From a virus, in the IMG/VR virus record IMGVR_UViG_3300025732_001515, positions 1 through 33,600 of that record: a DNA stretch of 33,600 nucleotides; one strand, 5' to 3'. Below the pieces are notes generated by a model that ran no database searches, was not told the origin of the DNA, and saw only the letters and a list, made by a program, of their open reading frames with translations. The translations under genes were made by a program, and so were the position numbers. Positions 17,993 to 33,600 of the stretch are shown piece by piece (the first letter of the stretch is position 1; every line of letters starts with the position of its first letter).

Positions 17993-18001
17993 GAATGACA
18001 C

Positions 18002-18043
18002 GGTCGGGGCCTCTGCCGCAAGGTACGCCTCGGCCTTCTCTTT
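18002..18043 (+). terminator. terminator after hsp20
   Basis: GGTCGGGGC (18002-18010) pairs with GCCTCGGCC (18027-18035) using two G-U pairs, with a 16-base loop, followed by TTCTCTTT (18036-18043). Confidence 0.6.
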
Positions 18044-18056
18044 ATGAGGACATATT

Positions 18057-19690: not shown

Positions 19691-19691
19691 T

Positions 19692-20309: not shown

Positions 20310-21199
20310 TGAGTAAGCCGCCTCTTCTCCTCGGTTTCTCTGATACCTTTGCGACCGCAGAACTGTTTTTTACAACGGTTCTAAGTGAATACTACGATGT
20401 TACTATTGATAATCAAAACCCAAAGTATGTTATCTTTGGTGATAGTAACTTTGGTAAAGCACATAACAAGTTCAATGGACGTGCTAAGAAAATCTTTTAT
20501 ACAGGAGAAAATGTTCGTCCAGACTATCTAACATACAATCATGCCATAACATTTGATCCAGAGAATAGTCCCAGACATTACCGATTACCACTATATGTTT
20601 TAGATATGTGGAGTGCTGTTCATTTTGAGCATTGGACGGATGATTACTTACAGTTGTGTAATCGTGACTTGGGTGATCCTGAGAAAAATTGGAACAGAAA
20701 GTTTTGTTCTTTTGTTCAGTCCAATCCTAAATCTTCTGTTCGTAACACTTTCTTTCCTATGATTTGTGCATACAAGCAGGTTGATTCGGCAGGGCCACAT
20801 CTGAACAATACAGGTTTCATTTTGCCTAGAGATAAACTAGAACATAAGATTAATTTCTTGAATAAGTATAAATTCAATATAGCATTTGAAAATCAAACTT
20901 ATCCTGGATATGTGACCGAAAAGATTTTGAATGCGTTTCAGGCTAATACTGTACCTATCTATTGGGGCGCAAACAATACAGTTCACCGAGACTTTAACAA
21001 GAAAGCATTTATCAATAGTCATGACTTTGGCACTTTTGATAGAGTCATTGATTATACCAAGCATCTTGACTCACCAGAAGGTAAAAACGAATACCTAGAT
21101 ATGTTATATCAGCCTCCATTTGTTGATAACAGACCTAACTGTTACACTGATTTACATCAGTTTTATCTTTGGTGGCATATGTTTGTTTATGAGGGATAA
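20309..21199 (+). CDS. GT10 family fucosyltransferase
   Basis: 296 residues. The conserved alpha-1,3-fucosyltransferase block is clear: FNIAFENQ (E194), then GYVTEKILNAF and TVPIYWGA, matching FENs-x-x-x-YvTEK-x-x-x-A of GT10. The first half (IFGDSNFGKAHNKF, KIFYTGENVRPD) matches the N-terminal GT-B domain. It transfers fucose or a related GDP-deoxysugar to a glycan acceptor. The next gene is GDP-mannose 4,6-dehydratase, the first committed step to GDP-fucose, so donor supply and transfer are encoded side by side. TAATG overlap with the methyltransferase. Confidence 0.9.
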   Translation: MSKPPLLLGFSDTFATAELFFTTVLSEYYDVTIDNQNPKYVIFGDSNFGKAHNKFNGRAKKIFYTGENVRPDYLTYNHAITFDPENSPRHYRLPLYVLDMWSAVHFEHWTDDYLQLCNRDLGDPEKNWNRKFCSFVQSNPKSSVRNTFFPMICAYKQVDSAGPHLNNTGFILPRDKLEHKINFLNKYKFNIAFENQTYPGYVTEKILNAFQANTVPIYWGANNTVHRDFNKKAFINSHDFGTFDRVIDYTKHLDSPEGKNEYLDMLYQPPFVDNRPNCYTDLHQFYLWWHMFVYEG

Positions 21200-21200
21200 T

Positions 21201-22217
21201 ATGAAGAAAGCGATTGTTACTGGAATCACCGGGCAAGACGGATCATATCTTGCTGAACTTCTATTAGATAAAGGATATGAGGTCTACGGTTTTGTCCGTA
21301 GATCATCCACACCCAATTATTCTAATATAGAATCCATAAGAAATCATAAAAATCTAAATCTTATCTATTGTGATCTAACATCACCATCGGCTGTTATAGA
21401 TAACATTCTAGAAATTAAGCCTGACGAAACATATAACATCGCAGCACAATCAGATGTTAGAGTTTCGTTTGATATTCCTGAATACACGATGCAATGTATT
21501 GCTGTTGGCACCACAGGTATTCTAGAAGGCCTTCGCAAACTAAAAGTTGCTGGACACAATCCAAAGTTTTATCAGGCATCAACATCTGAAATGTTTGGAC
21601 TCGTTCAAGAAACTCCACAGAGAGAAACAACACCATTCTATCCCCGTTCGCCATATGGTTGTGCTAAATTGGCCGCACATTGGATGTCGGTAAACTATCG
21701 TGAGTCATATGGTATGTTTAACTGTAATGGCATTCTATTCAATCACGAAAGCCCTCGTCGTGGTACAAACTTTGTTACTCGCAAGGTCATTCATGGTCTG
21801 AAACGAGTAGCACTCGGTAAGCAAGAATTTGTTACTATGGGTAATATTGATGCCCAAAGAGATTGGGGCCATGCTAAAGATTATGTTGAGGTGATGCATA
21901 AGATGTTGCAGCACCATACTCCTGATGATTATGTGGTTGCTACAGGCAAACTACATACTGTCAGAGAGTTTATTGAGGTTGCTGCCAAATATTTTGATAT
22001 GGATATTGAATGGCGTGGTAAGGCAGAGAATGAAGTTGGTATTGATAGAAAGACTGATAAGATTGTTATCAATATCAATCCATATTTTTATCGTCCGGCA
22101 GAGGTTCAATTACTGCTAGGTGATCCTACCAAAGCACGATTCACATTAGATTGGACTCCAAAGTATGATTTTAAGGCACTTGTTGAAGATATGTGTCTGC
22201 TTGAAAAGGGTGAGTAA
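21201..22217 (+). CDS. gmd: GDP-mannose 4,6-dehydratase
   Basis: 338 residues, close to the family length. Cofactor loop TGITGQDGSYL at the N-terminus, STSEMFG catalytic Ser/Thr segment, and YPRSPYGCAKLAAHW with the YxxxK pair, followed by NHESPRRG, a GMD signature. It converts GDP-D-mannose to GDP-4-keto-6-deoxymannose, the precursor of GDP-L-fucose, GDP-rhamnose and GDP-perosamine-type sugars. The ATG at 21201 is preferred over 21189 because GAGG lies at 21191-21194. Directly follows the GT10 gene. Confidence 0.96.
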   Translation: MKKAIVTGITGQDGSYLAELLLDKGYEVYGFVRRSSTPNYSNIESIRNHKNLNLIYCDLTSPSAVIDNILEIKPDETYNIAAQSDVRVSFDIPEYTMQCIAVGTTGILEGLRKLKVAGHNPKFYQASTSEMFGLVQETPQRETTPFYPRSPYGCAKLAAHWMSVNYRESYGMFNCNGILFNHESPRRGTNFVTRKVIHGLKRVALGKQEFVTMGNIDAQRDWGHAKDYVEVMHKMLQHHTPDDYVVATGKLHTVREFIEVAAKYFDMDIEWRGKAENEVGIDRKTDKIVININPYFYRPAEVQLLLGDPTKARFTLDWTPKYDFKALVEDMCLLEKGE

Positions 22218-23191
22218 TGTCTAAAATTTTATTTGCTGTTCATCGCTACTATCCTTTTCCGGGCGGTAGCGAATATAATGTTCGCAACATGGCAGAAGAA
22301 TTGGTTCGCCGTGGTCATGATGTTCATGTTCTCGCCGATATACAAAAGGGTGATATCAATGGTGTGAAGGTTGCTACAGAATATAAGTGGCTGCCAAGAG
22401 ATTGGGATTTGATACTTGTTCATGGTGCAGATTGTTCCACACAAAACGTTGTCCATGAAAATGCACAAAGACTAAGATCGCCGGTTGTTCATATGATTAT
22501 TAAACCTAGCGACTCTTATCTTTCTGTTTTTGGTATGAATCATCATCGTTTTGTTTCTTATGCTACAACTATGGATTTGCAGCATATACATAAGTATAGA
22601 TTGTTGAAAAAGGCTAGACGTATTAGATACGGATTGATACCACAAGAAACCATTGCAACAGCAAACAAGACCACTAATAAAACAATTTATGTTTCTGCCG
22701 GTGGTTTCTATCCACATAAAGCAATGACTCCTCTTGCACAGGCATTTGAAAGTGCAAACATTCCTAATGCTGAGTTACATCTTTACGGATACGGTGAAGA
22801 ACATTTAGCCCCACCACAATCTAAAAAGGTAAAAGTATTTTACGGACTTCCTAAATCTGAGGTAATGCAGGCAATGGCAAATGCTGATGCCTATATTATG
22901 AACTCATATGAGGAAGGATATGGTCTTGTTCTTTTGGAAGCAATGATGAATAAAACACCTTGGTTCGCAAGAGATATTGCAGCCGCTCATGATTTGTGCT
23001 ATCATGGCAATGTTTATAATGATGAAGCGGAACTAATGAAATTGCTCAGGAACTATAAACGTGACGAAGAAAAGATTACCCGTGCTTACAACTATGTTAT
23101 GGCGAATCATACCGTAGAACAAACGGCTAATGACATTGAAGATATATTATTGGAGACACAGAGTTATGAATACTGCGGATTCAACCCCTAA
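22217..23191 (+). CDS. GT4-type glycosyltransferase
   Basis: 324 residues, GT-B fold. The opening FAVHRYYPFPGGSEYNVRNM, followed by AEELVRRGHDVHVL, is the usual GT4 N-terminal strand and helix with the GG loop. C-terminal YVSAGGFYPHKAM..., HLYGYGEEH and YEEGYGLVLLEAMM give the E-x7-E motif of donor binding. TAATG with GMD; the last 26 bases overlap the next gene. Donor unknown. Confidence 0.85.
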   Translation: MSKILFAVHRYYPFPGGSEYNVRNMAEELVRRGHDVHVLADIQKGDINGVKVATEYKWLPRDWDLILVHGADCSTQNVVHENAQRLRSPVVHMIIKPSDSYLSVFGMNHHRFVSYATTMDLQHIHKYRLLKKARRIRYGLIPQETIATANKTTNKTIYVSAGGFYPHKAMTPLAQAFESANIPNAELHLYGYGEEHLAPPQSKKVKVFYGLPKSEVMQAMANADAYIMNSYEEGYGLVLLEAMMNKTPWFARDIAAAHDLCYHGNVYNDEAELMKLLRNYKRDEEKITRAYNYVMANHTVEQTANDIEDILLETQSYEYCGFNP

Positions 23192-24431
23192 AAAAGTTAC
23201 AGTTATTGGAGCGGGAGGTCACGTTGGCCTTCCGTTTTCTCTTGTCGTTGCGGATGCAGGACATAAAGTTTGTGGTGTAGATTTGAATGAAGAACTTATT
23301 CTTGAGTTAGAAGAAGGTAATGTTCCTTATGTTGAACATGGTGCCGCAGAACTTTTAGCAAAGCATTTGAAGACTGAAAACATATTTTTCACAACCAATC
23401 CATCTTTCATCAAAGAAAGTGATATTGTATGCATTATGCTTGGCACACCTGTTGATGAAGAAAACAATCCACGACTAGATGATTTGTTCAACTTTGTTGA
23501 TAACACTCTTATACCTTATATGAAGAAAGATACTTTGGTGATGCTAAGATCAACAGTATCACCGGGCACAACAGAAATTCTTCGTGATCGTATTGAAGAA
23601 AAGACTAAATGGGTAGAAGGTGTAGATTTTTATCTGACGTTTGTTCCTGAAAGAGTTCTACAGACAAAAGGTATTGAAGAGACTGCCACTCTACCAGCAC
23701 TAGTTGGTGCCTGTTCTATAATGTCTTTTTATAAGGCTAGAGACTTTTTACAAACATTCGTCAAGGCTGAAATCATTCGTCTAAAAGCAAGAGAGGCAGA
23801 GATTGCCAAACTCATGACGAATATGTATAGGTATGTTACCTTTGCTCTTGCCAATGAGTTTTGGATGATTGGTGAAAAGCAAGGTGTAGATATGCATAAT
23901 GTCATCAAGGCAGCAAATCTTGGTTATGAAAGAAATGCTATTCCTTTACCAGGTCCGAATGTCGGCGGCCCATGTCTATTCAAAGACGGTCGATTTCTTC
24001 TATCAGACATTCCGTTTGCCGATCTTATTCAGACTTCGTTTCATATCAATGAAGGTATGCCAGACTACATCTTCAATCGTATCAAGGAGATGAATCCTAA
24101 GATAAGATGTGTTTTGATTCTTGGTGCGACCTTCAAGAAGGACTGCGACGATACAAGAAACAGTCTATCATATAAGATGAAGAAGGTATGTAGAAAGAAT
24201 GGAGCCGAGGTGTATATGTGGGATGACTATGTTCCGTGGCCAAAGGACAAAGGTTTTCCATACAGAGAACATTTTGATGCTGTTATTGTAATGACACCAC
24301 ATACAGGCACAGAAAAGAAATGGCCACTAAATGATTTTAATGATGATTGTATTATGGCAGATATCTGGAAGATGTATCCAGAAAGTAAACTAAGTAATTC
24401 AGGCATTTATAGAGTTGGAGATATACGATGA
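23166..24431 (+). CDS. nucleotide-sugar 6-dehydrogenase (UDP-glucose/UDP-ManNAc dehydrogenase family)
   Basis: 421 residues. VTVIGAGGHVGLPFS is the NAD-binding loop, TPVDEENNPRLDDL and RSTVSPGTTEIL are family blocks, and GGPCLFKDGRFL has the catalytic cysteine C270. The C-terminal UDP-binding domain (LGATFKKDCDDTRNSLSYK) is typical. It oxidises the C6 hydroxyl of a UDP-sugar to a uronic acid using two NAD+. The first residues before VTVIG are a short extra leader. GPC replaces the more common GxC-LPKD spelling (here LFKD). The ATG at 23166 is 10 bases after GGAG (23152-23155). Confidence 0.9.
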   Translation: MNTADSTPKKVTVIGAGGHVGLPFSLVVADAGHKVCGVDLNEELILELEEGNVPYVEHGAAELLAKHLKTENIFFTTNPSFIKESDIVCIMLGTPVDEENNPRLDDLFNFVDNTLIPYMKKDTLVMLRSTVSPGTTEILRDRIEEKTKWVEGVDFYLTFVPERVLQTKGIEETATLPALVGACSIMSFYKARDFLQTFVKAEIIRLKAREAEIAKLMTNMYRYVTFALANEFWMIGEKQGVDMHNVIKAANLGYERNAIPLPGPNVGGPCLFKDGRFLLSDIPFADLIQTSFHINEGMPDYIFNRIKEMNPKIRCVLILGATFKKDCDDTRNSLSYKMKKVCRKNGAEVYMWDDYVPWPKDKGFPYREHFDAVIVMTPHTGTEKKWPLNDFNDDCIMADIWKMYPESKLSNSGIYRVGDIR

Positions 24432-25420
24432 GGATTTTGGTTACAGGTAGTGAAGGTTCACTAATGCAGGCGGTCATTCCGCTACTATTAAACAAAGGAC
24501 ATGTTGTCTATGGTGTAGACAATCTAGCACGATATGGTGAACGTCTAGGACATGCCGGCACAGATTATACATTTATCAAGTGTGATCTTACAGACCGATT
24601 AAATGTTGATAAGTTGGTAGAGCAAGTGAAGCCTGACTATATTATTCAGGCTGCTGCTACCATCTATGGTGTAGGCGGATTCAACAAGTATTGTGGTGAG
24701 ATGTATAAGGATATTACACTACACGATAACGTCCTTCGTGCTGCTGTTGCTCATGAAGTGAAAAAGGTAGTTTATATTTCATCTTCTATGGTATATGAGA
24801 ACTGTCCACAAGACATCGCTTATCCTGTTCCAGAGGATATTGTTGACAGCAATCCTGCTCCTTATACAGACTATGGTCTATCAAAGTTTGTTGGTGAAAG
24901 AGTGTCAAAAGCATATCTAAAGCAGCATGGTCTAAAGTATACCATCTGGCGTCCATTCAACATCATTACACCATATGAAAGAAGCGAGTCAGAAGAAGTT
25001 GGCATCTCACATGTCTTTGCTGACTATATCAAGAATATTGTGGTTGATAAGAAGAAGCCTCTGCCTATTCTTGGTGATGGTTATCAGATTCGGTGCTTTA
25101 CATGGATTGATGAGGTTGCTGCTGCCATTGCTGACTATTCATTCTCTGAAAAGACAGATAATGAGACTTACAATCTAGGTAATCCAGAACCAATCTCTAT
25201 GCGTGTTCTTGCTGAGAAGATTAAAGACATTGCAGCAAAAGAATTTATGCTTCTAGAAGATTACTTCCTACTATATGAATCAATAGGTGATTATGAGAAC
25301 GATGTTCGTGTTCGTATTCCTGATTGTGAGAAGGCCAAGAGAGACCTTGGATGGGAAGCAAAGATGAAAGTTGATGATTCAATTCGTATGTGTCTCAAGC
25401 ATGTTGTGGAGGTGAAATGA
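24428..25420 (+). CDS. NAD-dependent nucleotide-sugar epimerase/dehydratase (extended SDR)
   Basis: 330 residues. ILVTGSEGSLMQAVIPLLL gives the dinucleotide loop with a Glu-Gly-Ser variant (TGxxGxxG altered to TGSEGSLM). SSSMVYEN supplies the catalytic Ser, YTDYGLSKF the Tyr-x-x-x-Lys, and RPFNIITPYE matches the usual RPFNxYGP. The segment AAATIYGVGGFNKYC has some likeness to GDP-fucose synthase, so completing GDP-fucose from the GMD product is a possible role, but a UDP-sugar epimerase is at least as likely. ATGA at both ends. Confidence 0.8.
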   Translation: MRILVTGSEGSLMQAVIPLLLNKGHVVYGVDNLARYGERLGHAGTDYTFIKCDLTDRLNVDKLVEQVKPDYIIQAAATIYGVGGFNKYCGEMYKDITLHDNVLRAAVAHEVKKVVYISSSMVYENCPQDIAYPVPEDIVDSNPAPYTDYGLSKFVGERVSKAYLKQHGLKYTIWRPFNIITPYERSESEEVGISHVFADYIKNIVVDKKKPLPILGDGYQIRCFTWIDEVAAAIADYSFSEKTDNETYNLGNPEPISMRVLAEKIKDIAAKEFMLLEDYFLLYESIGDYENDVRVRIPDCEKAKRDLGWEAKMKVDDSIRMCLKHVVEVK

Positions 25421-25977
25421 ATAAGCCAGTGATTATTGATATTGGTTCTGGCCCACATCCTAAGCCCGATGCAACATACAAGATGGATTTGCACCAGTGG
25501 GCAGGTGTAACTCACGTTCACGATCTTAGACATGTGCCATATCCTTTTGAAGCAGACTTTGCCGACAAAGTTTATTTTGGTGATGTGATTGAACATCTAA
25601 CAAAGTTTGATGCACCTAAGGTTCTAAAAGAAATCAAGCGCATTATGAAGACGGGTGCTACACTAGAAATTACTTGTCCCGATGTTCTATGGATTATGGA
25701 ACGCATCGTTCATAAAGATTGGGATGAAAAGGCCAATGTGTCTTGGCTTCGTATGCATCCTGATCCATTTGAGAATGCCATGGACTATTTGTTTGGTGGT
25801 TGGCGTCATCCTGACGAACACAAGATTCCTGGTATGGGACATATCAATGGATTTTGTGAAGAGTCTTTGACCAAACTACTCTATGAATGTGGTTTCACCA
25901 GAGTTTATAGAGTAGAAGATGATCGTAATCCTGCGCCTGCTCGTTGGGCCGTATTAAAGGTGAATGCTATAAAATGA
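25417..25977 (+). CDS. class I SAM methyltransferase (type 11-like)
   Basis: 186 residues, opening VIIDIGSGPHPKPDATYKMD (motif I). DVIEHLTKFDAPKVLKEIKR and TLEITCPDVLW are the conserved following strands. The middle WIMERIVHKDWDE and GHINGFCEESLTKLL match phage- and LPS-cluster methyltransferases. Likely sugar methylation. Shine-Dalgarno GGAGGTG before the ATG, which overlaps the upstream stop as ATGA. Confidence 0.83.
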   Translation: MNKPVIIDIGSGPHPKPDATYKMDLHQWAGVTHVHDLRHVPYPFEADFADKVYFGDVIEHLTKFDAPKVLKEIKRIMKTGATLEITCPDVLWIMERIVHKDWDEKANVSWLRMHPDPFENAMDYLFGGWRHPDEHKIPGMGHINGFCEESLTKLLYECGFTRVYRVEDDRNPAPARWAVLKVNAIK

Positions 25978-26921
25978 GAACATTTGTTGTAACAGGTTGT
26001 AATGGATATATTGGCAGTCATATGTGCCATGAACTTGGTGCATTATATAATGACTGTCACATTATAGGTATCGATAGAGTTCAAAAGAAGCATCTCAAGC
26101 ATTTGTATGACGAGTTCATTCAGGTAGACTTGGCTCTTGATCCTATCGTTCTATCAAATGGAAAGAAACGGCACATTGATGCCGTTTTTCATTTTGCTGC
26201 TGAGATATCTGTTGAAGAAGGTGAGTCAGATCCATGGAAGTATTACTTTAACAATGTGACAGGCACGCTTCGTATGATGAAAGAAGCAAAGCAATATGGC
26301 ATAAAGAACTTTATCTTTTCATCTACGGCTGCTGTATATGGTAAGTCAGAGAGTTCAACGTTTGGTCATCTATTTGAGACATGTCCGATCAATCCTTATT
26401 CTGTATATGGTAAGAGTAAAGCCATGATTGAGAATGTTCTACTAGATGAAAAAGAAATGAACTGTGCCATTCTTCGGTACTTTAATGTTGCTGGTAGAAA
26501 TCGAAGAGCAAATCTATACGAGGAACATGATCCTGAAACACATTTGATTCCTTTGCTTGTCAGAGGAGAAGATCCTGTAATCTACGGAACAGATTATTGG
26601 ACAAAAGACGGAACATGTGTCAGAGACTTTATTGATGTTAGGGATGTTTGCCGGGCTCATACACTAGCGTATAGATATATGGAAGAAAAGAATGAAAGTC
26701 TCCTTCTAAATATAGGAAGTGGTAAAGGATATTCCGTAAAAGAAGTTGTTGACAAAGTGAACGAAATCATTCATAATGGCAAGATGAATGTTAGATATGA
26801 GGAAAGGAGACCTGGTGATGTTTCCTATCTTGTGGCCGATACTACAAAGATAAAAGAACTATTGGATTTCCAACCACAATATTCACTGGAAGATATTATA
26901 GAAAGTATGAAAGATGTATGA
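25974..26921 (+). CDS. galE: UDP-glucose 4-epimerase (GalE)
   Basis: 315 residues (typical GalE 325-340). TGCNGYIGSHMCHEL is the NAD-binding loop, HFAAEISVEEGESDP a family block, SSTAAVYG with YSVYGKSK the catalytic Ser and YxxxK, and LRYFNVAGRNR then TCVRDFIDVRDVCRAH complete the GalE pattern. It interconverts UDP-glucose and UDP-galactose, or the N-acetyl forms. ATGA with the methyltransferase. Last gene of the contiguous sugar cluster. Confidence 0.93.
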   Translation: MRTFVVTGCNGYIGSHMCHELGALYNDCHIIGIDRVQKKHLKHLYDEFIQVDLALDPIVLSNGKKRHIDAVFHFAAEISVEEGESDPWKYYFNNVTGTLRMMKEAKQYGIKNFIFSSTAAVYGKSESSTFGHLFETCPINPYSVYGKSKAMIENVLLDEKEMNCAILRYFNVAGRNRRANLYEEHDPETHLIPLLVRGEDPVIYGTDYWTKDGTCVRDFIDVRDVCRAHTLAYRYMEEKNESLLLNIGSGKGYSVKEVVDKVNEIIHNGKMNVRYEERRPGDVSYLVADTTKIKELLDFQPQYSLEDIIESMKDV

Positions 26922-27231
26922 ATATATAGCAAAAGTTGTGAGAATTGTTGATGGTGATACCGTAGATGTTTTAGTCGATCTTGGATTTCATATCTCAATT
27001 GAAATAAAACTTAGATTGTATGGACTCAATGCACCAGAACTAAAAGAAGAAGCAGGTAAGACTACAAGGGATTATCTATTCTCTCGATTATATAATAAGA
27101 CTGTAACAATCAAAACAGTAAAAGATCGACAAGAAAAATATGGTCGATATCTAGCCACCATCATCCTCGATGGTGAAAACATTAACGAAGACCTTTTGAA
27201 TAAAGGTTATGCAGTAAAGTATATGGTGTAA
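26914..27231 (+). CDS. staphylococcal nuclease-like (SNase) protein
   Basis: 105 residues with the three catalytic positions of thermonuclease: IVDGDTVDV (11-19), RLYGLNAPE (R34, E42) and KYGRYLA (R78), equivalent to R35, E43 and R87. There is no signal peptide, so it acts inside the cell, unlike secreted staphylococcal nuclease. It is a Ca2+-dependent DNA/RNA hydrolase by family. The start ATG overlaps the galE end by eight bases. Confidence 0.9.
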   Translation: MYEYIAKVVRIVDGDTVDVLVDLGFHISIEIKLRLYGLNAPELKEEAGKTTRDYLFSRLYNKTVTIKTVKDRQEKYGRYLATIILDGENINEDLLNKGYAVKYMV

Positions 27232-27232
27232 C

Positions 27233-27451
27233 ATGGACAAATGGGAAAAACTAAAACACTACATCAATGCCGACATTTCACATGCGGTTCATTACTCACA
27301 CGATAAGTTGTTTGAACACAATGTTTCGCTACGGTATAAGAAATACATGGAAGACTTAGAGAAAGAGGAGCAGGAGTATCTTGCTGCTAAAATAGAAAAA
27401 GCAAAAGAAATTCATAAAGAAATGATGAACGACTTACAGGGGCTATCATGA
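27233..27451 (+). CDS. hypothetical protein, 72 aa, helical
   Basis: A soluble, strongly charged protein; residues 33-66 (YKKYMEDLEKEEQEYLAAKI...) should form a long helix or coiled coil. One base after the SNase stop, and ATGA with the acyl-CoA dehydrogenase gene, so all three are likely co-translated. Not recognised. Confidence 0.75.
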   Translation: MDKWEKLKHYINADISHAVHYSHDKLFEHNVSLRYKKYMEDLEKEEQEYLAAKIEKAKEIHKEMMNDLQGLS

Positions 27452-29160
27452 AATATACAGCACCATTAGCATCAACACTATTTCTTCTCCGTGATGTTCT
27501 AGGTTTCAATAATGAGAATACTGAGGCAATCTTAACAGAAGCAGCAAAACTATGTGAGGATGTTATTGCACCTACTAATCAGAAAGGGGATGAAATCGGA
27601 GCAAGGAGACTTTCAACTGGCGATGTTGAAGTTCCATTTTGTTTTCATGAACCTTGGAAGCAGTTCACAGAAGGAGGATGGCTTGGTTTATCAGTTCCTG
27701 AAACCTATGGCGGACAGGGTATGCCGTTTACACTTGCGGTGGCGTTCAACGAGTTTGTATCCTCTTCTAATATGGCTTGGTCTCTATATCCTGGCATTAC
27801 TCGTGGAGCTATCAAGACCCTGCTAGTGTCTGGTTCAGCACCACAGAAAGAACATTTCATTCCTCCAATGGTTCGTGGTGAATGGACAGGAACAATGTGT
27901 TTAACAGAACCGCATTGCGGCACTGATCTTGGTTTGCTAAAGACTAAAGCAGTAGACAAGCACAATGGTTCATTTGAAATCACAGGTCAGAAAATTTTTA
28001 TCTCTGGTGGTGATCATGATCTAACAAAGAACATTCTTCATCTTGTTCTAGCAAGAGTTGAAGGTGATCCAGAAGGCGTCAAGGGTATCAGTCTATTTGC
28101 TGTGCCTAAGTTTTTGGTTAATCTATCACACAACAATGTATCTGCTGGTGCTATTGAAGAAAAGATGGGTATTCATGGTTCACCAACTTGTGTTATGAAC
28201 TTTGATGGTGCTACAGGTTTTCTTATTGGAGAACGCTGTAAGGGTCTTCAAGGTATGTTTGTTATGATGAACGAATTAAGGTTAGGTTGTGCTATTCACG
28301 GTCTATCACAATCGGAGTTGGCTTATCAAAATGGAGTGCAATATGCTAAAGAGCGTAAGCAAGGTTATTCTCTGGTTTCTCGTGATTCTGGTACTGTATC
28401 TATTGTGGATCATCCTGACGTTCGCCGTATGCTCCTTGATGTTAGGTCTATCAACGAGGCTGCTAGGTTTCTAATACTAGAAGCAGCAACATTGGTTGAT
28501 GTTGTAAATGCTGATGGATCTACAACAGACATGGCAGTAGAAGCAGATATCAAGAGACAGAAGGAAGATGCCGAAGATCGCCTTGGTCTAATGACTCCAG
28601 TTCTCAAAGGTGTTATTACCGATTATGGTGTTGAGAATGCTATCAAGATGCAGCAAGTATGGGGCGGTCATGGATATGTTCGTGACAATGGTATGGAACA
28701 GATTGTCCGTGATGCTCGTATTGCTATGATCTATGAAGGTGCGAATGGTATTCAGGCACTTGATCTTGTTGGTCGTAAGTTGCCTAAGAACATGGGTCGT
28801 GCTATTACTAAGTTCTTCAAGGACAGTGAAAGTTTCTTGACGAATGCTTATGAAAAAGATATAAATCCAATCGTGCAACCAATGACAAGAGCATTGAATG
28901 AACTAAAGCAAGCAACGGAATGGTTGATGCATAATGCTATCAAGAATCCAAACAATGCTGGTTCTGCTTCTTACGACTATATGAAGATGATGGGACTTGT
29001 TATGCTTGGTATGGCACACATCAAGATTTGTCTAAAGACGAATGATAAGACTCGCCATGACAATGCCACATACTTCATGCAGCGTATTCTACCGGAGACA
29101 AGTTTTCTGTTGCAGCGTATTAGAGAAGGTTCTGACACTATGATGGGAGCGGAGTTTTGA
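27448..29160 (+). CDS. acyl-CoA dehydrogenase, DmdC-like
   Basis: 570 residues, intact. Long-form acyl-CoA dehydrogenase: FAEGGW-like TEGGWLGLSVPETYGGQG, then MAWSLYPGITRGAI, the FAD segment EWTGTMCLTEPHCGTDLG, GQKIFISGGDHDL, KMGIHGSPTCVMNF, and IYEGANGIQALDLVGRK, where E430 is the catalytic base position. These blocks follow, almost word for word, the alphaproteobacterial 3-methylmercaptopropionyl-CoA dehydrogenase (DmdC) and its fatty-acyl relatives. DmdC oxidises MMPA-CoA to methylthioacryloyl-CoA in DMSP breakdown. Substrate cannot be told from sequence by eye. Base use resembles neighbours. It would be an auxiliary metabolic gene. The last 33 bases recur at 29457. Confidence 0.93.
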   Translation: MKYTAPLASTLFLLRDVLGFNNENTEAILTEAAKLCEDVIAPTNQKGDEIGARRLSTGDVEVPFCFHEPWKQFTEGGWLGLSVPETYGGQGMPFTLAVAFNEFVSSSNMAWSLYPGITRGAIKTLLVSGSAPQKEHFIPPMVRGEWTGTMCLTEPHCGTDLGLLKTKAVDKHNGSFEITGQKIFISGGDHDLTKNILHLVLARVEGDPEGVKGISLFAVPKFLVNLSHNNVSAGAIEEKMGIHGSPTCVMNFDGATGFLIGERCKGLQGMFVMMNELRLGCAIHGLSQSELAYQNGVQYAKERKQGYSLVSRDSGTVSIVDHPDVRRMLLDVRSINEAARFLILEAATLVDVVNADGSTTDMAVEADIKRQKEDAEDRLGLMTPVLKGVITDYGVENAIKMQQVWGGHGYVRDNGMEQIVRDARIAMIYEGANGIQALDLVGRKLPKNMGRAITKFFKDSESFLTNAYEKDINPIVQPMTRALNELKQATEWLMHNAIKNPNNAGSASYDYMKMMGLVMLGMAHIKICLKTNDKTRHDNATYFMQRILPETSFLLQRIREGSDTMMGAEF

Positions 29161-29161
29161 T
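29128..29161 (+). repeat. 34-bp imperfect direct repeat, copy 1
   Basis: This covers the last 11 codons of the acyl-CoA dehydrogenase plus the TTG start of the next gene, and differs from copy 2 (29457-29490) at two positions (C/T at the 10th base and G/C at the 26th). It carries the GGGAG ribosome site used by the downstream gene. Confidence 0.85.
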
Positions 29162-29318
29162 AAAACTTACCGATACCTGTTATGTAACAGATGATGAAAT
29201 GGAAGCGATTGTTTGTTGTGAAAATGGACAATGGGTAAGAATAAACAAAGAATCAAAAATACTTGAACTACTATCAAAAGAAAAAGTTGATGAAATTGTA
29301 AAAAAGAGGAATAAATGA
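29157..29318 (+). CDS. hypothetical protein, 53 aa (TTG start)
   Basis: Begins TTG-ATA-AAA (MIKLTDTCYVTDDEMEAIVC); an acidic and Lys-rich helical protein ending VDEIVKKRNK. The TTG overlaps the upstream TGA (TTGA) and has GGGAG (29145-29149) seven bases before it. The stop makes ATGA with the next gene. Function unknown. It is the first gene in the repeat-flanked mini-cassette. Confidence 0.5.
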   Translation: MIKLTDTCYVTDDEMEAIVCCENGQWVRINKESKILELLSKEKVDEIVKKRNK

Positions 29319-29464
29319 TGAAACGATTCCATTGGAACGGTAGTAAAGAAGTAAAACGCAAGTATTGGCGTTACGGTAAGTTTCGTCAGCGTTTGATTTG
29401 GGGTGCGGATTGGTATCATTATTTATTACAAGATGTGCATAATCGTCGCCCTGTTGGGTTCTGA
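29315..29464 (+). CDS. hypothetical basic protein, 49 aa
   Basis: Begins MMKRFHWNGSKEVKRKYWRY; very basic and aromatic (net positive), which could suit nucleic-acid binding. Starts by ATGA (ATG 29315; ATG 29318 also possible), and its last codons run into the second repeat copy. Unknown function. Confidence 0.55.
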   Translation: MMKRFHWNGSKEVKRKYWRYGKFRQRLIWGADWYHYLLQDVHNRRPVGF

Positions 29465-29490
29465 TACTATGATGGGAGCGCAGTTTTGAT
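29457..29490 (+). repeat. 34-bp imperfect direct repeat, copy 2
   Basis: 32 of 34 bases match 29128-29161. It includes the end of the 49-residue gene, a GGGAG ribosome site (29474-29478) and the TTG start of the gene at 29486, so both copies place the same initiation signal before a gene. Confidence 0.85.
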
Positions 29491-29689
29491 TTTTGATTAC
29501 AAAGAAGATGTTTGTAAGTATGTTGTCCATTCCAAGAAGAATGGAAATGAGTTTGCTATTTCGTTTCCCTCCATGGATCAGGTTGCTGACTATGTAGAAA
29601 CAGAAAAGAATGTAACAGGTGTGTGGAAAGTAGTATCACAGAAGATTCCACCAGAAGTATATACGAGAAGAGTGAAGGATGTGGATTAG
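29486..29689 (+). CDS. hypothetical protein, 67 aa (TTG start)
   Basis: Reads MIFDYKEDVCKYVVHSKKNG, then FAISFPSMDQVADYVETEKN. A mixed alpha/beta protein whose pattern (F-x-F-x-S-x-x-x-V/A-x-x-Y-V) looks like a small regulator fold, but I do not recognise it. The TTG start has GGGAG seven bases upstream inside the repeat, an arrangement identical to the gene at 29157. Overlaps the next gene by 11 bases. Confidence 0.65.
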   Translation: MIFDYKEDVCKYVVHSKKNGNEFAISFPSMDQVADYVETEKNVTGVWKVVSQKIPPEVYTRRVKDVD

Positions 29690-29828
29690 TATTCATCAAG
29701 ATAGTATCATTGTTTGTCGTCGATGCAGTAGATACAAATGGCTAAGACCATATGATGAGTTTCTTTGTAGCACATGGTCTAGGCATATCAGAATGACCAA
29801 TAGAAGAATGAGGAAAAAGTATGTATGA
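29679..29828 (+). CDS. small cysteine-containing basic protein, 49 aa
   Basis: Reads MWISIHQDSIIVCRRCSRYK, with a C-x-x-C and a third cysteine (FLCSTW) near residue 30, and an Arg-rich end. It may bind zinc, though a fourth ligand is not obvious (a nearby His is possible). ATGA overlap with the next gene supports it. The start ATG 29679 lies inside the end of the preceding gene. Function unknown. Confidence 0.55.
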   Translation: MWISIHQDSIIVCRRCSRYKWLRPYDEFLCSTWSRHIRMTNRRMRKKYV

Positions 29829-30061
29829 CGAAATATTTGATGATAATCTCAATGGTGGTATTCCCCACGGTTACTAATGCTCAACTAGCAATGACAACGG
29901 ACAATCATTCATTGACAAGAGCAACACCTAACGCACCACAAACATCACCAACATATTCTTGGCAACCAAACACAAGTGAAGGTGCTACACAAGGATGGCA
30001 ATCAACTGTTCGTGCAGGCGGTGCAAGGGTAATGATGCCAGAATGGGAAGAGATAGAATAA
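29825..30061 (+). CDS. small exported protein, 78 aa
   Basis: The N-terminus MTKYLMIISMVVFPTVTNAQ is a signal peptide with a likely cleavage after T-N-A (residues 17-19). The mature part is Thr/Ser/Pro/Asn rich (TPNAPQTSPTYSW) and low in charge until the acidic end. An exported or periplasmic protein of unknown role. Starts by ATGA. Confidence 0.65.
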   Translation: MTKYLMIISMVVFPTVTNAQLAMTTDNHSLTRATPNAPQTSPTYSWQPNTSEGATQGWQSTVRAGGARVMMPEWEEIE

Positions 30062-30070
30062 ATGTCAACG

Positions 30071-30093
30071 GGGTGCGACACTTTGTCGCACCC
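30071..30093 (+). terminator. perfect 10-bp hairpin ending the upstream unit
   Basis: GGGTGCGACA (30071-30080) and TGTCGCACCC (30084-30093) with a three-base loop. It is followed by ACTCCTATTG rather than a U-run, and by a promoter eight bases later, much like the 9500 arrangement. Confidence 0.65.
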
Positions 30094-30100
30094 ACTCCTA

Positions 30101-30129
30101 TTGACAATACCTTCGGTTTTTGCTATAAT
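30101..30129 (+). promoter_or_regulatory. consensus sigma70 promoter
   Basis: TTGACA (30101-30106), 17-base spacer, TATAAT (30124-30129). Drives the gene at 30151, whose Shine-Dalgarno GGAGG is at 30141-30145. Confidence 0.9.
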
Positions 30130-30150
30130 GCTTGAAATATCGGAGGTGTC

Positions 30151-30558
30151 ATGGCTCTTTTACCCGTCTATTATACTACCACCAATCTTCGTAAACGCAA
30201 GCCTAAAAAGACTAATACTGCCGAACATATCAAGTGGCTTGAGTCCATGGGTCTTACACCCAAGCAAATCAAAGCAAAGAAAACCAAGAACACTTCCTGG
30301 AAGTCCGAGTATAAAGACTCCTTGCAGGTTGATCGTTCTACCAAGCATCATGAAAAGTCTATTCAAGAGGTGTGTAATGCACCTGCTAACGCCACGGCCA
30401 ATCGGTCTATGATGGCTAATCTACATAAAGAAAACGAAGAAACTCGTAAGGCCATTCTTGACAAGGCCAAGCGGGTGATGCCGCTCTATAACAAAGGTGG
30501 TCTTCAGGTTCTATCCGAGTCTGATGATCTTAAATACTTGAATAAGGTAGCACGATAA
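30151..30558 (+). CDS. conserved basic phage protein, 135 aa
   Basis: Begins MALLPVYYTTTNLRKRKPKK, followed by a Lys/Thr-rich basic central region and a helical part, and ends PLYNKGGLQVLSESDDLKYL. The MALLPVYYTTT opening and NKGG ending strike me as a conserved phage protein of unknown function in marine T4-like phages. Highly basic (net charge strongly positive), so DNA or RNA binding is plausible. It has its own consensus promoter and a GGAGG ribosome site, so it is probably expressed early and strongly. Confidence 0.8.
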   Translation: MALLPVYYTTTNLRKRKPKKTNTAEHIKWLESMGLTPKQIKAKKTKNTSWKSEYKDSLQVDRSTKHHEKSIQEVCNAPANATANRSMMANLHKENEETRKAILDKAKRVMPLYNKGGLQVLSESDDLKYLNKVAR

Positions 30559-30791
30559 TGAGCAAGAAAGCAAGACGTAGACCTTCATGGAAAAAGTATA
30601 TCGGTCCAAGACCGTTTTATATCGATCTAATCAATGATGAAACAGGAGAACTATTTGAGAGGGTCATGGTTAAAGATGGCACCTTTCTTCGTAATATGCT
30701 AAGGAGAGATGGACCTGATATCTTAGAAGAAAAACTAAGACAAGGATTCATCGACCTTGCCGAGAGAACTATTTCAGAGAGAACTAAATAA
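30558..30791 (+). CDS. hypothetical protein, 77 aa
   Basis: Begins MSKKARRRPSWKKYIGPRPF, basic, then YIDLINDETGELFERVMV and a helical end. TAATG with the upstream gene and with the next gene. Not recognised. The repeated coupling suggests a fixed stoichiometry with its neighbours. Confidence 0.75.
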   Translation: MSKKARRRPSWKKYIGPRPFYIDLINDETGELFERVMVKDGTFLRNMLRRDGPDILEEKLRQGFIDLAERTISERTK

Positions 30792-30913
30792 TGAATGAAT
30801 ATGAATCACTAGGTGAACTAGCACTCAACTGGTTGTTCTGGTTTGTTGTAGGCACATTTGTTGCCTACACTATTTTTAGTCTATTGGAGTATCTACGTGG
30901 AAGAGAAGACTAA
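30791..30913 (+). CDS. single-pass membrane protein, 40 aa
   Basis: MNEYESLGELALNW then a hydrophobic helix LFWFVVGTFVAYTIFSLL and LRGRED. The start overlaps the upstream stop (TAATG), and the end overlaps the next gene. Unknown function. Confidence 0.6.
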   Translation: MNEYESLGELALNWLFWFVVGTFVAYTIFSLLEYLRGRED

Positions 30914-31070
30914 AGAAGAAAAAGATAAACAGTTTAGATTGGAGATGGCAAATGAAGTATGGCGAAAAGTCAAAGGTATTGATATTCCCGCAGACTACTC
31001 GGAAGAGGATCGTCTGTCAATATACGAGCGTTACTACCACCGTGCCGTCTCCATGTCTCAAGGAGAGTAA
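30897..31070 (+). CDS. hypothetical protein, 57 aa (GTG start)
   Basis: Starts at GTG 30897 (MEEKTKEEKDKQFRLEM) with GGAG (30886-30889) seven bases upstream; the frame stays open further upstream without a better site. Charged and helical, with ADYSEEDRLSIYERYYHR. Not recognised. Confidence 0.6.
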   Translation: MEEKTKEEKDKQFRLEMANEVWRKVKGIDIPADYSEEDRLSIYERYYHRAVSMSQGE

Positions 31071-31140
31071 CAGTTATTGGCCTACATTGTTAGGCGCATT
31101 CATTGGACTGTTATACATTTCCATTCTATTTGTATTGTAA
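31042..31140 (+). CDS. possible mini membrane protein, about 32 aa
   Basis: Open frame ending in a clear hydrophobic helix (TLLGAFIGLLYISILFVL) that fills the gap before the next gene. The start is uncertain: GTG 31042 lacks a good ribosome site, and the AAGGAG at 31060-31065 has no start codon at the right distance in this frame. May be real or a chance ORF. Confidence 0.35.
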   Translation: MPSPCLKESNSYWPTLLGAFIGLLYISILFVL

Positions 31141-31149
31141 GGAAGAGTT

Positions 31150-31329
31150 ATGGATCAAGATACTATTGTAGGCATTCAGAAGATGCGAGAACATAAACCT
31201 ACAACTGTCTATGATATTATGGACGAAAGAGATGCCTATAAACAGGCATTGCAGGATATCACAAAAGCAGCCACATTAGATGAAATTCTCGATATTGCCC
31301 ATCATGTATTGTCGGAGAATAAATCATGA
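31150..31329 (+). CDS. hypothetical protein, 59 aa
   Basis: Begins MDQDTIVGIQKMREHKPTTV; mostly helical and acidic. GGAAGAG upstream of the ATG is a fair ribosome site. Ends by ATGA with the next gene. No recognised family. Confidence 0.65.
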   Translation: MDQDTIVGIQKMREHKPTTVYDIMDERDAYKQALQDITKAATLDEILDIAHHVLSENKS

Positions 31330-31490
31330 AAGAGTTAGTGTTTGCTGTCATTAGCATTTGCCTACAGACAGGTGAATGTGAGACACATCAAGTAAAGATT
31401 GAACCTCGTGTATGTCAGTTGAAAACTGTTAAGGCGCAGGTCCCAGTTATGGGTGAATGGAAAGATGCCACGGTAAGATTTAAATGTTAA
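31326..31490 (+). CDS. small cysteine-containing protein, 54 aa
   Basis: Begins MKELVFAVISICLQTGECET, with a short hydrophobic N-terminus that may be an export signal, and four cysteines (CLQTGEC, RVC and a C-terminal FKC). Disulphide pairing outside the cytoplasm is possible. Starts by ATGA. Function unknown. Confidence 0.6.
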   Translation: MKELVFAVISICLQTGECETHQVKIEPRVCQLKTVKAQVPVMGEWKDATVRFKC

Positions 31491-31502
31491 AAGGAGAACT
31501 AC

Positions 31503-31697
31503 ATGCACGTTGGAGATAAGGTAAGTTACGATGCTGTTAGTGAGGCATATTGCTTACTAACCTCTTATATTCGTGAAGAGGGCAAGATTGCCGCAGAATA
31601 TAACAAAGACAAGTTACAGGAACTGGTTGTTTTTCTTGCGGACATTATGAAACATCCCGACAACTTTAATAAGGATGTTGAACAGAAAGGTGAATAG
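31503..31697 (+). CDS. hypothetical protein, 64 aa
   Basis: Begins MHVGDKVSYDAVSEAYCLLT; helical, soluble, moderately acidic. Good Shine-Dalgarno AAGGAG (31491-31496) six bases before the ATG. It ends one base before the start of the next gene. Not recognised. Confidence 0.7.
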   Translation: MHVGDKVSYDAVSEAYCLLTSYIREEGKIAAEYNKDKLQELVVFLADIMKHPDNFNKDVEQKGE

Positions 31698-31698
31698 T

Positions 31699-31935
31699 AT
31701 GAATAAGTTTTTTATTGCTACCGCTATTGTTGTTGCTCTAACAGGATCCGCACTAGCACATAAGCGACCAACAACTTCAACAAACGGCACGGGTGCATTG
31801 GTAACTGAAAAGGGTGTGACAGTTAAGGCACCAGTCGGTTCTAATGTTGAAGTCGATGTTGATGGCCGTGATGTTGATGTAACTGTTGATGGTCCGGATC
31901 GTGGTCTTCTAGGTCTAGGAGTTCTAGGACTATGA
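31699..31935 (+). CDS. small exported protein, 78 aa
   Basis: Signal peptide MNKFFIATAIVVALTGSALA with cleavage expected after A-L-A, then a HKRPTTSTNGTG linker. Most of the rest is a strand-forming repeat-like region with VEVDVDGRDVDVTVDG, and it ends in the Leu/Gly-rich RGLLGLGVLGL. The ATG at 31699 sits right after the previous stop. Forms ATGA with the next exported protein, so the two may act together outside the cytoplasm. Confidence 0.7.
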   Translation: MNKFFIATAIVVALTGSALAHKRPTTSTNGTGALVTEKGVTVKAPVGSNVEVDVDGRDVDVTVDGPDRGLLGLGVLGL

Positions 31936-32168
31936 GAAAGATTTTAGTTATTGCTGCTCTAATGTTTAGCACCGCTGCCTTTGCAGCACCATATGGCACT
32001 TATTATAATCCAGTTCAGGATCCACCATTTACTGGTGACTGGTCTGTTCCAGTTCATCGTGGCATGTATTGTGTTCAGGGAACTTGGCATAGTGGTTGGC
32101 TACGTCCATGGGAGGGAACTGTTGTAATCAAGCCATCTTGTGGCACAGCGGTTTATCAAATTCAGTAA
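31932..32168 (+). CDS. small exported protein with two cysteines, 78 aa
   Basis: Signal peptide MRKILVIAALMFSTAAFA, then APYGTYYNPVQDPP and a compact Trp/Gly/Pro-rich region with two cysteines (MYCVQGTW and PSCGTAV), likely a disulphide-stabilised domain. ATGA with its partner. Unknown function; an envelope-acting protein by location. Confidence 0.72.
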   Translation: MRKILVIAALMFSTAAFAAPYGTYYNPVQDPPFTGDWSVPVHRGMYCVQGTWHSGWLRPWEGTVVIKPSCGTAVYQIQ

Positions 32169-32179
32169 ATCTCTAAATA

Positions 32180-32204
32180 GAAAGGAACCTTCGGGTTCTC
32201 TTTC
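32180..32204 (+). terminator. UUCG-tetraloop hairpin before the holin-like gene
   Basis: GAAAGGAACC (32180-32189), loop TTCG, GGTTCTCTTTC (32194-32204), ten pairs with one bulged T. It lies just upstream of the Shine-Dalgarno of the gene at 32219 and just after a CTAAATA motif (32173-32179). Could be a terminator of the exported-protein unit or a 5' stabilising hairpin. Confidence 0.5.
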
Positions 32205-32218
32205 GAAAGGAGATTATC

Positions 32219-32446
32219 ATGTTCAAGAATATTACCGCTAACTGGAAGACCACTGTTGCTGCACTTATTCCTGTTGTAGCATATGGTCTAAAGTATGCCG
32301 GTGTTTGGCCAGAGTCAATGCCACTTCCTCCACTTGATGAAGTATGGCCATTTGTTCTAGCACTACTTGGTGTTGGTGTTGCCGCTAAGGACAACAATGT
32401 TACCAACTCAACAAACACAGTCGAGTCACACAAGGTTGATCTATAA
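32219..32446 (+). CDS. holin-like membrane protein, 75 aa
   Basis: Begins MFKNITANWKTTVAALIPVV. Two hydrophobic stretches (about 11-28 and 42-55, WPFVLALLGVGVAAKD) separated by a Pro-rich loop, with a polar C-terminus. The NWKTTVAALI...AKDNNVTN pattern resembles small phage membrane proteins often annotated as holins. The neighbouring spanin pair on the opposite strand supports a lysis role. No endolysin is in this window. Good Shine-Dalgarno AAAGGAG. Confidence 0.5.
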   Translation: MFKNITANWKTTVAALIPVVAYGLKYAGVWPESMPLPPLDEVWPFVLALLGVGVAAKDNNVTNSTNTVESHKVDL

Positions 32447-32454
32447 TTTGAACT

Positions 32455-32477
32455 GGGCGGATTTAATCCGCCCTTTT
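32455..32477 (+). terminator. intrinsic terminator between convergent genes
   Basis: GGGCGGAT (32455-32462), loop TTA, ATCCGCCC (32466-32473), then TTTT (32474-32477). The loop is also the stop codon of the o-spanin gene on the minus strand. Confidence 0.85.
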
Positions 32478-32744
32478 CACTATCTGGTCTGCTTCATTTA
32501 GAAACTTACGAATAGACTCAATGGAACTTTTGCATGTCAAATTGTTCTTATGTAACTGAACAACCAACTTCGCCACCTGACTATCCGTCAGAGTCTTCCA
32601 GTTTGGAAACTCCTTCACAACAGGACAATAATACATTGCCTCGTCAGGATGAACAACCATATGACGATAAGTTGTCACCACCTGAGTCTGGTCATTACAA
32701 GAAGCCAGTAAGACTACGGCTAACAATAGAATAATCTTTTTCAT
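32463..32744 (-). CDS. outer-membrane spanin lipoprotein (Rz1-like)
   Basis: 93 residues. MKKIILLLAVVLLASCND carries a signal peptide with a lipobox LLAS-C16, so the mature protein is a lipoprotein. The rest (VVTTYRHMVVHPDEAMYY...) has no membrane helix. It begins by ATGA overlap with the upstream inner-membrane coiled-coil protein on the same strand. Such pairs are spanins, which join inner and outer membranes in the last step of lysis of a Gram-negative host. Larger than lambda Rz1 but within the range of separate o-spanins. Confidence 0.78.
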   Translation of the reverse strand: MKKIILLLAVVLLASCNDQTQVVTTYRHMVVHPDEAMYYCPVVKEFPNWKTLTDSQVAKLVVQLHKNNLTCKSSIESIRKFLNEADQIVKRAD

Positions 32745-33124
32745 TTCATTTGCTCCAAAGACTTGATTGTGTCTTTAAGTATTTGCGACGACTCTCTATC
32801 ATGTCCAGCACCAACATGTTTATCAATCTCTGTGACAACAGAATCTAATTTGTTTTCCAGTTCTCTATTCTTCTGTGCAAGATTGTTGATTGCTTCGGAC
32901 CTTGCTCTGGCGACATTTTCTATTTCTTTTATATAAGCATCTCGGTCTTTTATAGTCTGTTCCAACTGTTTGATGTTGTATTGCTGGAGTGCTATTTGCT
33001 TTTCGTTATTGACAATCTCACGGTGTTTCATGTATAATCCACCTGCCAGCCCTGCTACAATTCCAAGAATGGAAAGCCACTTTATGGAACCTGAGGTAAT
33101 GAGAGATAAAATAAATGTTGGCAT
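32741..33124 (-). CDS. inner-membrane spanin (Rz-like)
   Basis: 127 residues. A short N-terminal segment and one membrane helix (about 13-31, IKWLSILGIVAGLAGGLYM) followed by a long charged coiled-coil (about 35-105, NEKQIALQQYNIKQLEQTI...). This is the i-spanin layout. The stop overlaps the o-spanin start (ATGA). Shine-Dalgarno GGAGGTG is strong on this strand. It is transcribed against its neighbours, and no good minus-strand promoter is visible upstream. Confidence 0.75.
   Translation of the reverse strand: MPTFILSLITSGSIKWLSILGIVAGLAGGLYMKHREIVNNEKQIALQQYNIKQLEQTIKDRDAYIKEIENVARARSEAINNLAQKNRELENKLDSVVTEIDKHVGAGHDRESSQILKDTIKSLEQMK
33009..33038 (+). promoter_or_regulatory. consensus-like promoter antisense to the i-spanin gene
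   Basis: TTGACA (33009-33014), 18-base spacer, TATAAT (33033-33038) on the plus strand, inside the minus-strand spanin. It could be chance from coding, or supply antisense RNA and the gene at 33179. Confidence 0.4.
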
Positions 33125-33125
33125 C

Positions 33126-33153
33126 TTGACACCTCCGCACAGTATGCTATACT
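33126..33153 (+). promoter_or_regulatory. sigma70-type promoter of the Bfd-like gene
   Basis: TTGACA (33126-33131), 16-base spacer, TATACT (33148-33153). It begins two bases from the spanin start codon of the opposite strand. The -10 region contains the inverted repeat AGTAT/ATACT (33141-33145, 33149-33153). Confidence 0.7.
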
Positions 33154-33178
33154 ATATATCTATGTGAGAGGAAAGGTA

Positions 33179-33373
33179 ATGATTTTATGTTCCTGTAACA
33201 GTTTATCTTCCAATACCGTAAAGCAAATCATAGACGACCATTCTTTTGATGCTGTTCCTTCCGTCCAAGAGATTATGGAGAAGCATGGTTGTTCTGTTGT
33301 TTGTGCTACTTGCGCCCACAATATCAAGATTGAAATAAGGAGACATTATGCGAATAAAAATCGGACCATATAA
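33179..33373 (+). CDS. bfd: Bfd-like [2Fe-2S]-binding protein
   Basis: 64 residues. C4-x-C6 near the N-terminus (MILCSCN) and C42-x-x-C45 (VCATC) give the CxC...CxxC cluster pattern of bacterioferritin-associated ferredoxin, with an extra C38. Bfd binds a [2Fe-2S] cluster and helps release iron from bacterioferritin; a phage copy might do this or act as a small redox/DNA-binding partner, as in other Bfd-like domains. ATG 33179 is preferred over GTG 33164. It has its own promoter. Confidence 0.75.
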   Translation: MILCSCNSLSSNTVKQIIDDHSFDAVPSVQEIMEKHGCSVVCATCAHNIKIEIRRHYANKNRTI

Positions 33374-33600
33374 GAATTGGTATGGACCCTGGCAGATTGC
33401 TGAATGGGTTCCGTTTCTAAATGAAGACCAGAAGGATAGACTTGGTCATTGGATTAGTCATACTTGGATTGCTAATATCTGCGACTGGATTTATAAAATT
33501 CGTGGTGAACGCACCATCAAAGTTCGTATTGATCCATATGATACTTGGTCTATGGACAATACTCTCGCTCATATCATTCTACCAATGCTAAAGCAGCTAA
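33348..33600 (+). CDS. conserved phage protein, 3' end cut by window
   Basis: 84 residues visible, frame open to the end. Begins MRIKIGPYKNWYGPWQIAE; the later KVRIDPYDTWSMDNTLAHII and LPMLKQL blocks resemble a conserved hypothetical protein I recall from T4-like phages (KIGPYKTW...DTWSMD...LPMLKQL). Shine-Dalgarno AAGGAGA. It overlaps the Bfd-like gene by 26 bases. Function unknown. Confidence 0.82.
   Translation, partial: MRIKIGPYKNWYGPWQIAEWVPFLNEDQKDRLGHWISHTWIANICDWIYKIRGERTIKVRIDPYDTWSMDNTLAHIILPMLKQL

Follow-up and report, generated by a model that had tools for sequence, protein, structure and literature searches.

A complete acyl-CoA dehydrogenase gene (fadE) in T4-like phages, probably acquired from a methanotroph related to Methylocystis

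The fadE locus

The DNA considered in this study (hereafter, the window) is an entire IMG/VR record of 33.6 kb and is therefore a genome fragment. The genes and features that matter to what follows are these:

51–851, plus strand: FtsH-type M41 protease, C-terminal part, truncated at the contig start
851–2575, plus strand: SbcC-like (T4 gp46-type) recombination protein, part of the phage backbone
17429–17992, plus strand: HSP20-family protein, typical also of pmoC-phages (PMC7674155)
23130–24431, plus strand: UDP-glucose/GDP-mannose dehydrogenase, a syntenic upstream gene
24428–25420, plus strand: nucleotide-sugar epimerase/dehydratase, a syntenic upstream gene
25944–26921, plus strand: nucleotide-sugar epimerase, an upstream neighbour syntenic in the relative L009
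26914–27231, plus strand: SNase-type nuclease by profile match, upstream in the same gene run as fadE
27233–27451, plus strand: open reading frame of 72 aa without a Pfam match, its stop overlapping the fadE start, kept beside fadE in relatives
27448–29160, plus strand: phage fadE, acyl-CoA dehydrogenase of 570 aa with catalytic Glu430, by reading frame, Pfam, fold and alignment
29162–29456, no strand: 295-bp insertion after fadE, found by alignment in the window and L002 only
29457–29490, plus strand: 34 bp that duplicate the 3' end of fadE (32 of 34 positions by alignment), the trace of an insertion

The reading frame at 27448–29160 (plus strand) starts with ATG and runs for 570 residues with no internal stops, and its product exceeds the curated cut-offs of all four Pfam domains of the family (PF02771, PF02770, PF00441 and PF12806). 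The AlphaFold model (mean pLDDT 82.8) matches the fold of 6ijc with a TM score of 0.89–0.91 and those of FadE1 and FadE2 of Pseudomonas aeruginosa with scores of 0.88–0.92. Glu430 aligns with Glu441, the catalytic residue of FadE1 (PMC11890623), and is kept in all 14 phage copies examined. A sequence-only reading of this DNA had described the gene as intact, with an acyl-CoA dehydrogenase of 570 residues as its product and Glu430 as the catalytic residue, and that description holds. The same reading proposed that the gene is translationally coupled to the frame at 27233–27451, a fair and probable interpretation of the sequence given the overlap of start and stop (ATGA) and the AGGGG just upstream.

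The best match amongst solved structures is 6ijc, DmdC (47% identity, E 9.4e-151). The protein found no family in a search of PHROGs, and every one of its NCBIfam matches fell far below the cut-off. Methylsuccinyl-CoA dehydrogenase was considered as an identity for the protein, since the ethylmalonyl-CoA pathway operates in type II methanotrophs; it was rejected, as 6es9, which I take to be that enzyme, gave an E value of 3.5e-21 as compared to 9.4e-151 for 6ijc. An AidB-like role was rejected on both score and fold (3djl, E 1.2e-16, TM 0.71).

Upstream of fadE, window 18057–25977 is occupied by an extended series of nucleotide-sugar genes and genes that resemble those of glycosyltransferases and methyltransferases. 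The content of this series differs among relatives, and it probably serves the modification of surface or DNA with sugars. The gene for an FtsH-type M41 protease is present also in L008 (9060–10856) and occurs together with that for HSP20 on these phages.

The 3' end of fadE is a site of repeated insertion. In L008 (4106–5833), L010, L011 (11570–13300), L012, L015, L016 and L019 it is occupied by an HNH homing-endonuclease cassette that brings its own version of the last ~40 codons of fadE, so that the frame is not interrupted; the 40 codons that first ended the gene persist downstream. The cassette of L008 is 100% identical over 1608 bp to those of L011, L015 and L016; the bodies of the fadE genes differ by up to 7%. 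In L014 this site has received an insertion of another kind (11663–12140), which leaves a 53-aa reading frame as a remnant of the C-terminus of fadE. The 295-bp insert and 34-bp repeat in the window (29128–29490) resemble, on a small scale, the scars at sites of the homing cassette.

The carrier and its relatives

Several genes of the window, amongst them the SbcC/gp46-type gene and one that is CobS-like, place it with the T4-like phages, and the features expected of pmoC-phages as myoviruses, HSP20 and T4-like replication genes, are present, the DNA polymerase being taken from the relative L009, where it is about 50% identical to the polymerases of cyanophages. Two scans found homologues of fadE, 57–99% identical, on about 40 T4-like phage contigs of up to 174 kb. 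The carrier is a real phage. No close homologue was found among isolate phages: the best, at 43%, come from records labelled 'Acinetobacter phage MD-2021a', which look like pieces of bacterial chromosome because each carries several acyl-CoA dehydrogenases.

The gene could in principle have been joined to phage DNA by faulty assembly, or be host DNA from the edge of a prophage, and some matches in IMG/VR are likely to be of that kind (L124–L126, which group with Pseudomonas FadE outside the phage clade). For the window this is hardly credible. A contig from another metagenome, L002, is 99.8% identical to it from 17448 to 33600, the ~16 kb surrounding fadE; synteny on both flanks is kept in L009, L003 and L011, of which L009 (172 kb) and L011 (174 kb) are long phage contigs with the same sugar-nucleotide genes upstream and the same genes downstream; and the GC content of fadE is phage-like. 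The independent contig and the flanking synteny exclude the host-phage chimera about which the sequence-only reading had advised caution.

One may ask whether the gene still matters to the phage. Pairwise dN/dS ratios among the phage copies lie between 0.10 and 0.26, indicating purifying selection; none of 16 copies tested has an internal stop; and all the phage copies retain the same 90 of the 120 residues that do not vary across the cellular and reference sequences. That fadE is a passenger, an old host gene retained by linkage and of no further use, would accord with its patchy presence relative to pmoC (considered below), with the frameshifted copy in L020 and with the hotspot of insertion at its 3' end. 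I consider it improbable nonetheless, in view of purifying selection over divergent copies with the catalytic residue intact, and of homing elements that leave the reading frame open. The exceptional copy (L020 10001–11770) shows 23 gap openings relative to the window and is spread over several frames, a pattern that may reflect either sequencing error or decay.

Ancestry and substrate of the enzyme

The sequence-only reading had called the enzyme DmdC-like, with a possible role in the use of DMSP-derived carbon. The comparison underlying that label is to the methylmercaptopropionyl-CoA (MMPA-CoA) dehydrogenase of Roseovarius nubinhibens, 6ijc, which the phage protein does resemble (47% identity, TM 0.9) and which is its best solved match. 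This resemblance is real, yet it is common to the whole FadE/PF12806 family.

Ancestry was assessed by a maximum-likelihood tree of 50 rows, in which the DmdC side consists of one authenticated sequence (6ijc) and two relatives 77–80% identical to it. The phage proteins form a single phage-only clade (bootstrap 100, SH-aLRT 100) nested in the FadE proteins of Hyphomicrobiales, within a clade (95/88) that holds the Methylocystis-type FadE. The 6ijc group lies in a different and fully supported region of the tree, alongside the FadEs of Pseudomonas. Forcing the phages together with it yields a tree worse by 52.9 log units, and the grouping is rejected (p-AU 0.028). Making a clade of the phages and Methylocystis alone costs only 0.5 log units, and the test decides neither for nor against it (p-AU 0.417).

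Pairwise identities and gene neighborhoods follow the tree. In samples of genomes from Pseudomonadota and from the Methylocystis family, chosen without any pattern and so backing up a scan of the collection for bacterial fadE loci by two short patterns, the best cellular proteins, those of Methylocystis included, are 57–59% identical to phage FadE, as against 47–50% for the 6ijc clade. The nearest clade includes the FadEs of Methylocystis rosea L057 and Methylocystis sp. L064, which share 57–59% identity over their full length, the same four Pfam domains and the same catalytic Glu. In M. rosea, fadE is followed by genes for thiolase and FadB, a fadE-fadA-fadB operon, and both partners stand beside fadE in 60 of the 65 cellular relatives with 5-kb flanks among the matches listed in the scan. 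The two genomes closest to 6ijc (77–80%) also have fadE with fadA and fadB, hence membership in the family is not diagnostic of the use of DMSP. The phage copy differs from those of Methylocystis in being about 25 residues shorter, in standing without fadA and fadB, in residues of the substrate tunnel and a nearby loop, and in being AT-rich: its GC content is 41.5%, as compared to 63.8% for Methylocystis fadE, from which it follows that the acquisition is old. Judged from ancestry and composition, the phage gene appears to be a FadE that goes back to a single, ancient acquisition from a Methylocystis-like host.

It is accordingly very doubtful that the phage enzyme oxidizes methylmercaptopropionyl-CoA and so opens DMSP-derived carbon to the phage. 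The tree excludes it from the 6ijc clade, identity is higher to Hyphomicrobiales FadE (57–59%) than to 6ijc (47%), the closest relatives of 6ijc themselves lie in fadE-fadA-fadB loci, and the host is probably a methanotroph of the Methylocystis type, no user of DMSP. In the 19 phage contigs searched, no member of the enoyl-CoA hydratase family (as DmdD would be) was found, and phage FadE has no apparent DMSP context there. A literature search did not find dmdC as an auxiliary metabolic gene. A side activity is possible, as judged from two tunnel residues tested in FadE1 that are alike (Gly and Ala) in the 6ijc clade and in most FadEs. The label of DmdC is not supported. Of the suggestion that the gene redirects host carbon during infection, the part concerning fatty acids is plausible, and the part concerning DMSP is not borne out by the phylogeny or by the likely host.

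Among fatty-acid enzymes of solved structure, the phage protein can be compared with FadE1 and FadE2 of P. aeruginosa (PA0506 and PA0508; 8pns and 8png), which have the same family and fold as the phage protein and 43–44% identity to it. (The row for FadE2 in the alignment is that of a mutant chain, M130G/E296A/Q303A, and its tunnel residues were taken instead from PMC11890623.) The filter residue of FadE1, Gly129, is kept as phage Gly116. Two other tunnel positions differ: Ala295 of FadE1 is replaced by Leu277 in six of 14 phage copies and Gln302 by His284 in five of 14, the window copy being included in both cases, and Ala and Gln are kept at these positions in the L101 and L105 types. A loop at about 305–321 is altered in the subclade of the window, at several positions that are invariant in the cellular set. 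Since the mutation A295E in FadE1 moves its preference toward shorter chains (PMC11890623), the window enzyme is predicted to prefer chains that may be shorter than those used by Methylocystis FadE. One might go further and suppose that a fatty-acid enzyme has been retuned, its chain length narrowed or shifted (by Leu277, His284 and the loop at 305–321) for the remodelling of membrane lipids or for a specific acyl-CoA pool of the host. The substitutions at otherwise invariant sites and the effect of mutating Ala295 speak for this supposition; I regard it as unlikely, as the Leu and His changes are limited to part of the phage clade.

pmoC and the methanotroph host

The AmoC/PmoC domain (PF04896) is encoded on 20 of 42 fadE contigs, usually 0.6–5.3 kb downstream of fadE and on the same strand. 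Conversely, all or part of fadE lies no more than 10 kb from 23 of 56 loci of Methylocystis-type pmoC (defined as at least 85% identity to the protein of L009) and from none of 24 loci with divergent PmoC (58–66%), the loci in both counts being non-independent. The window encodes no PmoC within its 33.6 kb. It has instead an empty slot:

30052–30055, no strand: empty pmoC slot by alignment with L009, which carries a 926-bp stretch with pmoC between its matches to 30051 and 30056
30101–30129, plus strand: putative sigma-70-type promoter by pattern match only (12 of 12, extended -10), just after the pmoC slot

Window 29807–30051 corresponds to L009 12558–12802 and window 30056–30534 to L009 13729–14210; only in L009 does pmoC lie between the two matching stretches. 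Amongst contigs longer than 100 kb are some with fadE and no pmoC (G019, G024, G032, G037 and G041) and others with pmoC and no fadE: the two genes assort independently. Right after the slot (window 30060–30129) come a perfect hairpin, GGGTGCGACA-CTT-TGTCGCACCC, and the putative promoter. The arrangement marks a likely boundary between transcription units directly after the slot, and the promoter match suggests that a new unit begins there.

The empty slot and the pmoC of its relatives tie the window phage to the pmoC-phages described by Chen et al. (2020; PMC7674155), which were assigned to Methylocystis and other methanotrophs. By their published description, those phages are of myovirus type, infect freshwater methanotrophs and carry HSP20 and a pmoC of the Methylocystis type; in three of them, from Lake Mendota, part of an acyl-CoA dehydrogenase similar to that of Methylocystis lies near a partial pmoC. 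That part may be a 3' remnant such as is seen in L202. In contrast, the phage fadE described here is complete, is found on about 40 contigs, and occurs also without pmoC, as in the window. pmoC was not found in isolate phages. By gene ancestry and the published hosts of pmoC-phages, the phage (of lake type) most likely infects Methylocystis-like alphaproteobacterial methanotrophs.

Acyl-CoA dehydrogenase is already on record among viral auxiliary genes, as a transcribed fatty-acid dehydrogenase on viral contigs from soil (PMC8390657). With this and the partial gene of the pmoC-phages in view, the sequence-only reading went too far in doubting that such a gene is usual in phage metabolism. In the papers searched there was no description of a clade of complete and conserved fadE genes from methanotroph phages, of its linkage to pmoC, or of its descent from FadE rather than DmdC. 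The phage gene has the properties of an auxiliary metabolic gene: host-derived, in a genuine phage genome, intact and under selection.

The explanation I prefer, and judge to be probable, is that of a fadE of beta-oxidation derived from relatives of Methylocystis and kept by a T4-like clade, often beside pmoC. An ancestor of that clade would have captured the gene once from an alphaproteobacterial methanotroph, and purifying selection would have retained it, often next to pmoC. FadE, made during infection, would oxidize host fatty acyl-CoA, for example from the turnover of membrane lipids, to enoyl-CoA. Electrons would pass by way of host electron-transfer flavoprotein (ETF) and ETF-quinone oxidoreductase (ETF-QO) to ubiquinone, the host FadB and FadA would receive the carbon and complete the cycle, and the quinol would feed respiration and possibly pMMO. 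ETF-QO is found in Methylocystis. The 19 phage contigs searched contain neither ETF nor enoyl-CoA hydratase, so the enzyme must use partners supplied by the host.

Ubiquinol is the favoured donor to pMMO in type II methanotrophs (PMC7144005), and for this reason FadE and PmoC could act together. A specific version of the idea, which I offer as conjecture with the odds clearly against it, is a two-gene energy module in which FadE draws quinol from host membrane lipid through host ETF and ETF-QO and PmoC keeps pMMO running on it. Were it true, infection would burn host lipid to prime methane oxidation.

For the annotation of viral PF12806 dehydrogenases, best match alone is a poor ground for the label 'dmdC', considering that relatives of 6ijc are themselves found in beta-oxidation operons. 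For the biology of these phages, those with pmoC have been proposed to alter methane oxidation in lakes, and a phage-specific FadE clade, often encoded a few kb from pmoC, suggests that they also draw on the fatty acids of the host. In type II methanotrophs pMMO is proposed to take its electrons from quinol, and for that reason the pair of fadE and pmoC would provide a direct and testable link of lipid breakdown to methane oxidation during infection.
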